From an uncultured Clostridia bacterium (GTDB lineage: Bacteria; Bacillota; Clostridia; Lachnospirales; Lachnospiraceae), in assembly GCA_946401715.1 (NCBI GenBank), contig CAMIVF010000002.1, positions 1 to 36,984 of the forward strand: a stretch of DNA of 36,984 nt, in the 5' to 3' direction. Below the pieces are notes generated by a model that made no database searches, was not told the DNA's origin, and was given only the letters and a program-made list of their open reading frames with translations. Positions within the stretch are counted from its first letter, which is position 1. Each line of letters opens with the position of its first letter. Position numbers and translations under genes: made by a program. Shown piece by piece: positions 25,980-27,886 of the stretch.

Positions 25980-26972
25980 TTACTGATACTTCAGGTTTGA
26001 ATTGACGCTGATACCGGTCCATTCCTTTTTCCCGGAATCAACATATTCCGCCGGTATGGTGCAAGTCACCACGGAAGACTGCCCTCCCTCAAGAGCAGCC
26101 TGCACCGGCACATTGACCTTCATGACATCTCCGGCTCCCTCATCGGTGACGACAAGGTCAATGGTATCACACCACTTAGAGGTCTCGGTTCCATTTGCAA
26201 GCCATACCGCGCAGCAGACGGTTCCGTCCTCTTCCTGCCACAGAAGCGTAGGCAGCGCGTACAGAGCGCCCTCGAAGACCGCGCCTGACGCGAACCGCAT
26301 GCCCAGCGAAGGATAGAGATCAGCCGCGTTTCTCCCGCTGTCGGAGGCATTCCTGAATTCTTCCGGATAGTTCAGTGCGAGCAGTTCCCCTGCCGGAGAG
26401 ATGCTTGCCTTCCAACCGTCCTCATACTTTGCCAGCCGCATGAGCGTCGAATACCAGGAAACCGCCCCTGAGACATCCACATCGTAGTCGCACAGCGCCA
26501 CCGCAAAATAGTATGGGCTCTTCGTTGTATCCTGCGTAGGATCAAAGAAGCACAGATCTGCGTGATGTCCCAGATCTGAAGTGTCGCTCAGGGAAGACTT
26601 CACCGCCTGGAGCTGATCCTGAACAGTCTTTGCGTCCGCGCCTGCCTCGAACAGGGCAGCAAAGCTGCTGTTATCGTTGACGTCTGCGTAATGCTGCATC
26701 TGGGAATACAGTGTCCTTGCAGCACTCACCGCCTCCTCCGCCGTCAGGTTCTCCTCGACCGGATTCAGGATCTTCTCGTCTCCCGCAGCCGGAGCGTCCG
26801 TGGCTGCACTGTCTGCAGGCACACTCTCTTCGGGTAATACGTCAGCCTCTGTCTCGATCTCGGACTCTTCCGTACCGATGATCCGGATCCGCGCGGCTTC
26901 TGCAGCCGGAGCACAAGACACAGTGAATAGACTCACCGCTGCACAAAAAGCGATCCATCTGTTCTTTTTCAT
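25980..26972 (-). CDS. putative secreted/lipoprotein of unknown function
   Basis: MKKNRWIAFCAAVSLFTVSCAPAAEAA signal/lipobox-like N-terminus. RBS GGAGGAGATT before ATG. Confidence 0.75.
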   Translation of the reverse strand: MKKNRWIAFCAAVSLFTVSCAPAAEAARIRIIGTEESEIETEADVLPEESVPADSAATDAPAAGDEKILNPVEENLTAEEAVSAARTLYSQMQHYADVNDNSSFAALFEAGADAKTVQDQLQAVKSSLSDTSDLGHHADLCFFDPTQDTTKSPYYFAVALCDYDVDVSGAVSWYSTLMRLAKYEDGWKASISPAGELLALNYPEEFRNASDSGRNAADLYPSLGMRFASGAVFEGALYALPTLLWQEEDGTVCCAVWLANGTETSKWCDTIDLVVTDEGAGDVMKVNVPVQAALEGGQSSVVTCTIPAEYVDSGKKEWTGISVNSNLKYQ

Positions 26973-27011
26973 AATCTCCTCCGATCACATGCGAACGGCA
27001 TGGTTCTACAT

Positions 27012-27040
27012 ATTGTAGCGCATTTCCGGGCAGGATACAA
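27012..27040 (-). promoter_or_regulatory. candidate promoter of the 25980-26972 gene
   Basis: Minus strand TTGTAT (27040-27035), 17-nt spacer, TACAAT (27017-27012). Confidence 0.55.
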
Positions 27041-27063
27041 CAAGTTAACACACACGATCACCT

Positions 27064-27287
27064 CGCAGGCACCGAGGCCCTGAGGCTAAAAGGGTTACAC
27101 CAGAGGGCCGCTCGCGCTTATGGTCTCGCCTGCTGGCTCGGTCGGTGCTGAACGTGTGCCACTGGCACACAGCGCCCTCGCGTAGCGGTACTAACCTCGC
27201 GCAGAAAAGCACTGCGCTCGCTAAGTACCGACGCTGCGGATGCCCTCTTTGCGTAACCCTTTTAGCCTCAGGGCCTCGGTGCCTGCG
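27064..27287. repeat. 224-bp palindromic element with perfect 35-bp terminal inverted repeats and internal hairpins
   Basis: CGCAGGCACCGAGGCCCTGAGGCTAAAAGGGTTAC (27064-27098) is the exact reverse complement of 27253-27287. Internal pairs: AGAGGGC/GCCCTCT (27102-27108/27242-27248), GTGTGCC/GGCACAC (27154-27160/27164-27170), CGGTACT/AGTACCG (27186-27192/27224-27230), GCGCAG/CTGCGC (27199-27204/27212-27217). Confidence 0.9.
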
Positions 27288-27304
27288 CTTTGCCGCGTGG
27301 CATC

Positions 27305-27338
27305 CTGCCTGCGGCTATGCTATAATAGCCGCAGGCAG
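27305..27338 (+). promoter_or_regulatory. extended -10 promoter embedded in a 14-bp inverted repeat (candidate operator)
   Basis: CTGCCTGCGGCTAT (27305-27318) / ATAGCCGCAGGCAG (27325-27338); TATGCTATAAT spans 27316-27326. ATG of the HTH gene is at 27365. Confidence 0.75.
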
Positions 27339-27364
27339 ACCGGAATTCAGGAGACAGGAACGAC

Positions 27365-27886
27365 ATGGAAGATCCGAAGGAAATGATTGCAAACCTGAAT
27401 AAGCAGATCTCTGAGCTGAAGAGCCAGGTGAAGAGTGCCACTCTCGAGATGGAGATGATGCGTGCGCGGATGACGGATCTGCGCAAGGACGCGCAGCAGG
27501 CTGTTCAGATTGAGCGCTTTATCATCCCGGACGCGGACCGGCTTGGGGAGATCAATGACCTGGTGGATCTGATGGACAAAGCCATCAAGAAGACGCGGCG
27601 TTCGCGCAAGGCGCAGGCAGAGAAAACGGGACGCCCTGACAGCGCCCCGCCGAGAAAAGTCGATGAACGTATGATTCTGATCGTCCTGAAGCTGCGCAGG
27701 AAGGGATGCTATATCCGCGAGATCGCGGACCATACCGGCCTTGCGCACGGTACCGTTCATAATATCATCAAGAAATTCGGCAGCAATCCCCAGATGCAGA
27801 GCCTCGTGACGGAAGGCACGCAGATGGAACTGACGGATTATCTGCTGATCCGCCCGGAGGATGAGGCAGACGGATATGATGCATAA
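27365..27886 (+). CDS. coiled-coil protein with C-terminal resolvase/invertase-type HTH
   Basis: N-terminal heptad-like MIANLNKQISELKSQVKSATLEMEMMRARM; C-terminal GRPDSAPPRKVDERMILIVLKLRRKGCYIREIADHTGLAHGTVHNIIKKF resembles the Hin/resolvase HTH. RBS CAGGAGACAGGAACGAC. Confidence 0.8.
   Translation: MEDPKEMIANLNKQISELKSQVKSATLEMEMMRARMTDLRKDAQQAVQIERFIIPDADRLGEINDLVDLMDKAIKKTRRSRKAQAEKTGRPDSAPPRKVDERMILIVLKLRRKGCYIREIADHTGLAHGTVHNIIKKFGSNPQMQSLVTEGTQMELTDYLLIRPEDEADGYDA

Follow-up and report, generated by a model that had tools for sequence, protein, structure and literature searches.

The 224-bp segment and its surroundings

Between two divergent genes of an uncultured Lachnospiraceae bacterium lies a 224-bp segment (27064-27287) with palindromic ends, which raises the question of what kind of DNA it is and how it came to be there. 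Positions refer to the window, i.e., the whole stretch of 36,984 nucleotides that was analysed. As described in an earlier note on this DNA, the ends form an exact inverted repeat, with 35-nt arms (27064-27098 and 27253-27287) that are 100% complementary and separated by a 154-nt spacer. The 27064/27287 pair tops all inverted repeats in the window with a spacing of up to 400 nt, and it is also the longest in a survey of 926 kb (about 46%) of the bacterium's own genome. The second-longest inverted repeat found in that genome (L356, 10856-11040) has 30-bp arms, 125 nt apart. When folded, the segment reaches z-scores of -12.3 and -14.4 for the two strands relative to shuffled sequence, with none of the shuffles as good. 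The internal inverted pairs proposed earlier are real as well: GAGGGC/GCCCTC (27103-27108/27242-27247), GGTAC..GTACC (27187/27229), and GGTGCT/AGCGCC together with GTGTGCC/GGCACAC, both within 27144-27176.

The flanking reading frames are divergent (25980-26972 on the minus strand, 27365-27886 on the plus strand), and the segment itself contains no plausible reading frame; a mechanical 85-aa frame (27145-27402) runs into the start of the next gene. A promoter-like -35 element starts 10 bp downstream of the segment, and no intrinsic terminator (a hairpin followed by a T-run) is found in 26900-27450. No target-site duplication is visible at the flanks of the outer arms. As for the inverted repeat, the divergent genes and the missing duplication, the earlier description of the locus holds.

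Just downstream, at 27305-27338, there is a second, perfect 14-bp inverted repeat, the apex of which holds an extended -10 promoter (TGCTATAAT). The corresponding position in genome G009 is enclosed by a TTTCTGC/GCAGAAA repeat, so the repeat may be an operator for the gene at 27365-27886. This gene encodes a conserved 173-aa protein with no Pfam match, of which the C-terminal half resembles a helix-turn-helix (REIADHTGLAHGTVHNIIKKFG). Elsewhere, parS-like sites (TGTTTCACGTGAAACA) form a cluster in L286 (14804-15080), because of which contig C13 is probably near the replication origin.

Layered anatomy of the segment

The segment can be divided into the following features:

27064-27098, plus strand: outer arm on the left (O), 35 nt long and fully complementary to the right arm, with a sequence unique to this locus
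27103-27122, plus strand: core B, left part (GAGGGCCGCTCGCGCTTATG), which recurs in conserved form in contig C65, in nine G014 copies and in G008 (L015)
27123-27175, plus strand: element A, inserted at TATG(T)^CCTCGCG, missing from sister copies of B
27144-27176, plus strand: bulged hairpin of A, covarying, the basis of model R1
27176-27179, plus strand: first of the two CCTC direct repeats on either side of C, placed from the sequence and from B without C in L015
27180-27243, plus strand: element C, an imperfect hairpin of 64 nt (GCGTAGCGGTAC...GTACCGACGCTGCGGATGC) that lies within B and is missing from L015 of G008
27244-27247, plus strand: second of the two CCTC direct repeats, which doubles as the right half of the stem GCCCTC in B
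27253-27287, plus strand: right outer arm (O'), placed by its inverted-repeat match and by BLAST of the own genome

The segment is probably a nest of non-autonomous mobile DNA palindromes of the MITE/REP-like kind. The nested reading is supported by the existence of copies without C, without A, or without the whole insertion at other or orthologous sites. The idea of one element bounded by 35-bp terminal repeats had to be given up: at least three elements are nested here, and a BLAST search of the own genome, a check that the earlier note had called for, finds no second copy of the arms. The interior has one further copy in that genome, on contig C65, in addition to fragments elsewhere. Among 61 relatives it is dispersed: G014 alone gives 17 matches, and the hairpin is matched in many of the other genomes.

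Core B (GAGGGCCGCTCGCGCTTATG...CCTC) is each time located at the apex of a palindrome, the sequence of which is unrelated between genome contexts. Its simplest form is found in L015 of G008, where GGAGGGCCGCTCGCGCTTATGTCCTCC lies inside a palindrome with neither C nor A. In the C65 copy and in four G014 copies C is present as TCCTC/GCGTAGCGG...GGATGC/CCTCC, with CCTC on both sides, an apparent 4-bp target duplication of C as read from the sequence. The window copy and five G014 copies contain A in addition to C, between CTTATG(T) and CCTCGCG, so that the B copies of G014 comprise five that are filled with A and four that are empty, with exact junctions (CTTATGT^CCTCGCG). The arm sets differ by copy: those of C65 begin with CTGCGGCCCCGCCGCCCGTG and are perfect over 20 nt, those of the G014 copies are about 60 bp long and end in GTTACAAGTCACACCC, and L015 has a third, different set.

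Structure and insertion sites of hairpin element A

In the window, A comprises about 53 nt, which form a mini-hairpin, GTCTCGCC-TGCT-GGCTCGGTC, followed by a bulged hairpin, GGTGCT-[GAAC]-GTGTGCC-ACT-GGCACAC-AGCGC(C). The mini-hairpin has the layout GTCTC-stem-loop-stem-CTCGGTC, and its stem covaries across copies (GCC/GGC, GTC/GAC, up to GGCGTGT/ACACGCC). The bulged hairpin consists of a 6-bp lower stem, the final C of which is part of the target CC, a 4-nt 5' bulge RRAC (usually AAAC or GAAC), an upper stem of 7-8 bp (7 bp in the window) and a loop ACY (ACT/ACC). Among 25 distinct sequences 98.5% of the cells pair, a raw value that weighs less than the sliding and shuffle controls since the alignment rows were partly picked for pairing; seven pairs are changed on both sides, and the covariation score is 0.399 against 0.135 in shuffles. 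A is a family with a covarying hairpin and dispersed copies. Four tandem A-type hairpins with differing stems are observed in L111 (600-975) of G014.

Three independent insertion contexts of A agree, i.e., core B (TATGT^CCTC), the tRNA T-loop (TTCAAGT^CCC) and palindrome D (CGA^CCCCC). In each of them A lands directly upstream of CC, without visible target duplication; the base before A is often G in filled copies, which leaves the left boundary uncertain by one base. When A is taken out of 181 copies in silico, three of the rejoined junctions read as a tRNA again, and in these three A is located exactly in the T-loop of tRNA-Glu(CTC) (L017, 700-770), tRNA-His(GTG) (L222, ~350-465) and tRNA-Arg(ACG) (L235, ~650-765). 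Further copies lie in inverted-duplicated tRNA 3' tails. At these loci (L036, 1-210; L007, 1400-1760; L100, 1400-1560) the tails and their terminators are repeated in alternating orientation as extended palindromes, with A in the T-loop, an arrangement whose sequence looks like snap-back duplication. The flanks are strongly palindromic for 15% of the A copies, compared to 0.5% of random pairings. A position of A always at a palindrome apex was ruled out by this value, and apex insertion is at most a preference.

Distribution of element A

Model R1 detects A in 14 of the 19 genomes of the genus and in roughly a quarter (78) of 292 Lachnospiraceae genomes, each at least 90% complete. When applied to 300 phylum-wide genomes, its matches are confined to Lachnospiraceae; BLAST matches also occur in G058 and G040, which belong to other families of the same order. 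G514 carries 19 copies of A. An exact pattern of A recovers at least 118 contigs, from named Lachnospiraceae and from some MAGs of other Clostridia; the named carriers include Oliverpabstia intestinalis, Catenibacillus scindens, Blautia MAGs and Mediterraneibacter MAGs. The genomes compared are mostly MAGs, and A is also present in isolates and complete genomes. Viral contigs, plasmids and phage collections gave no match to A. Its exact sequence was not found in the literature, and the libraries and openly licensed literature searched contain no earlier description of the family.

Filled sites, empty sites and target duplications

In the comparison of empty sites suggested earlier, the intergenic region orthologous to that of the segment is empty in G009, G007 and G015. 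The nearest genome with an empty locus is only ~86% identical at the protein level, so that exact junctions are unreadable there. In the same intergenic region G005 has an independent insertion of A, and G018 a different palindrome with target-site duplication AATGCGGA. The C65 locus is empty in G009, and in G008 it is half-deleted between GGGCCGC repeats. Palindromes ending in GTTACAAGTCACACCC are abundant in G014, with 261 end-matches versus 3 in a reversed-pattern control. They range in length from 41 bp to more than 280 bp, and exact 8-bp target-site duplications are observed in at least seven cases (L006, L019, L041, L256, L258, L260 and L274); the GTTACARGTCACACCC palindromes have 8-bp duplications. 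The related palindrome D is inserted in G008 at a site of which the counterpart in the own genome (G000) is empty. The outermost layer at the window has neither a target duplication nor a second arm copy, so that its own mobility is putative. In the earlier proposal of a MITE/REPIN-like palindrome, the mobile part is supported by the dispersal of the copies, by filled as well as empty sites, by orthologous intergenic regions that lack the insertion and by 8-bp duplications around related palindromes; a REPIN in the strict sense is not supported, as there is neither a GTAG tag nor an association with RAYT.

In the own genome, three palindromes that differ from locus to locus have the core of repeat D (GAAGACTTTTGGGGGTCGGAGC) at their apex (e.g., L279, 9195-9384, and L282, 16180-16263); this core has 22 matches in G008 and 34 in G013.

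Origin of the outer arms

The arms of the D copies in the own genome vary by locus, but are still self-complementary. At the orthologous loci L315 (G008) and L363 (G000) the flanks are near-identical and the core is conserved, whereas the arms are unalignable, each set being self-complementary; the difference would also be accounted for if a single hotspot had received separate insertions. Between the sister copies of G014 several stem pairs are changed on both sides, e.g., A-T/T-A at 104-143 and C-G/T-A at 55-179, while one-sided intermediates are absent. Selection on each copy seems unlikely as the cause of such paired changes. Instead, template switching across the palindrome at the time of replication (quasipalindrome correction) may preserve the match between the arms, or the arms may be re-made at each move. 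Template switching in palindromes is documented in E. coli (PMC7202029). This mutational process would account for imperfect inverted repeats turning perfect, but it has been described in E. coli, and its action in the present genomes is putative.

According to another explanation the outer arms are an inverted duplication of local DNA, made by snap-back copying at the arrival of the core, which would yield perfect arms at each locus. The arms are indeed locus-unique; those of the window match perfectly, those of C65 (with a 20-bp perfect part) and L015 almost perfectly, and the divergent but self-complementary D arms, the unalignable arms within the conserved flanks of L315 and L363, and the tRNA tails that are palindromically duplicated around A all fit this explanation. 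We nevertheless consider it unlikely. The sole close orthologue with a single arm, the C65 locus in G008, was rejected as a single-arm ancestor since it keeps part of B and is better read as a deletion. Moreover, the G014 arms are themselves a mobile palindrome with an 8-bp target duplication, which also occurs without B or A.

Proposed mobilisation of the layers

In the preferred reading, a nest of mobile palindromes, each layer would have arrived by its own transposition into the loop of a palindrome already present, and the layers would be mobilised in trans by putative enzymes. The 8-bp duplications of the MITE-type palindromic layers point to a DDE-type transposase. Element A enters the loops of hairpins and the T-loops of tRNAs directly before CC and shows no visible duplication, which suggests the recognition of a folded strand or a hairpin tip. 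No transposase linked to A, B or C was found, and no recurring transposase-like protein was recognised adjoining the A copies. A variant is unlikely in which an unrecognised enzyme of a non-Y1 type acts on A as a folded single strand and sets it immediately before CC in the loops of other hairpins, tRNA T-loops among them, to build matryoshka palindromes, the arms arising by local snap-back synthesis instead of being carried.

Y1 transposases mobilise REPINs. If A were a REPIN/REP-type element, a Y1 tyrosine transposase (RAYT or TnpA of IS200/IS605) would act on its hairpin, which would agree with the short bulged hairpin of A, its tandem and clustered copies, its precise junctions without visible target duplication and its entry into other palindromes. 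This possibility is slightly more doubtful still. Y1_Tnp was not found in the own genome, G001, G002, G009 and G011, nor in G014, G536 (a complete genome with 8 A copies), G398 and G020. Conversely, there are no A copies near 20 Y1 loci, and A has neither a GTAG tag nor an exact CGTC tag. In G536 (C1) all seven listed A copies (7/7) are co-oriented relative to replication, but a replication-strand bias was rejected, as the two orientations number 61 and 69 over 130 loci.

A structured non-coding RNA, or a long RNA hairpin controlling the neighbouring genes, would agree with the very stable fold, the covariation of A and the adjoining promoter. Such an RNA, also put forward in the earlier note, is highly improbable. 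No match to a catalogued RNA family appeared: Rfam yields nothing over the window at the gathering score and nothing relevant up to E = 10, and only tRNAs on six other loci. The segment is missing from the orthologous intergenic regions, and its context changes from copy to copy. In addition, G-T mismatches in the stems are not in excess of A-C mismatches (13 versus 12 with a symmetric filter), whereas selection at the RNA level would favour G-U, which argues against such selection. The insertion lies between two plausible divergent promoters that are both intact, so that by default a selfish, nearly neutral element is to be expected rather than a regulator; it might influence the genes on either side, but nothing points to this.

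A chance structure or an assembly artefact (foldback chimera) is hardly credible: the genome is a draft MAG and hairpins are occasionally artefactual, but C65, G014 and G008 each yielded the same interior independently, within arms that differ, and A is found in isolates and complete genomes.

Comparison with known systems

The segment resembles a MITE in being short, non-coding, intergenic and multi-copy, with inverted-repeat termini that at the window are perfect over 35 bp, and it has no coding capacity. The related palindromes of G014 and G018 have 8-bp target duplications, while the window has none at its flanks and CCTC around C. The copy number expected of a whole MITE is not reached by the copy at the window: its arms are single-copy, its interior has one partial copy (C65) and A a few. 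It also differs from a MITE in its unique arms, in the nesting of several elements at the apex, and in arms that are wholly different between loci.

With REPs and REPINs, A shares the properties of small dispersed intergenic stem-loops, clustered or in tandem, without clear target duplication. Unlike these, A has CGGTC before the stem instead of GTAG or CGTC (tag definition in PMC3733652), and it contains a 4-nt RRAC bulge and a second, upstream mini-hairpin. PF01797 is found neither in the own genome (73% complete) nor in the complete G536, and the repeat does not flank a transposase gene. In its behaviour the A family is akin to MITEs and REPs, but it has neither the tag of REPs nor their RAYT. 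Firmicutes are listed for neither of the GTAG- and CGTC-tagged REP superfamilies, and the CGTC REPs are likewise without a known dedicated transposase (PMC3733652). Insertion sequences that target REP palindromes (PMC1525189) are similar in that mobile DNA enters palindromic repeats and forms nested structures; here the incoming elements are non-coding hairpins of about 53 to 64 nt, and A lands in tRNA T-loops too.

Significance

The filled and empty junctions of A are good enough for hunting the missing enzyme. Some tRNA genes are disrupted by the elements, which are also a probable cause of breaks in many short-read assemblies. The locus-different, self-complementary arms provide a natural test of how bacterial chromosomal palindromes arise and stay perfect. 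Together, these elements give a major group of gut bacteria a set of mobile hairpins that is family-wide and apparently undescribed.
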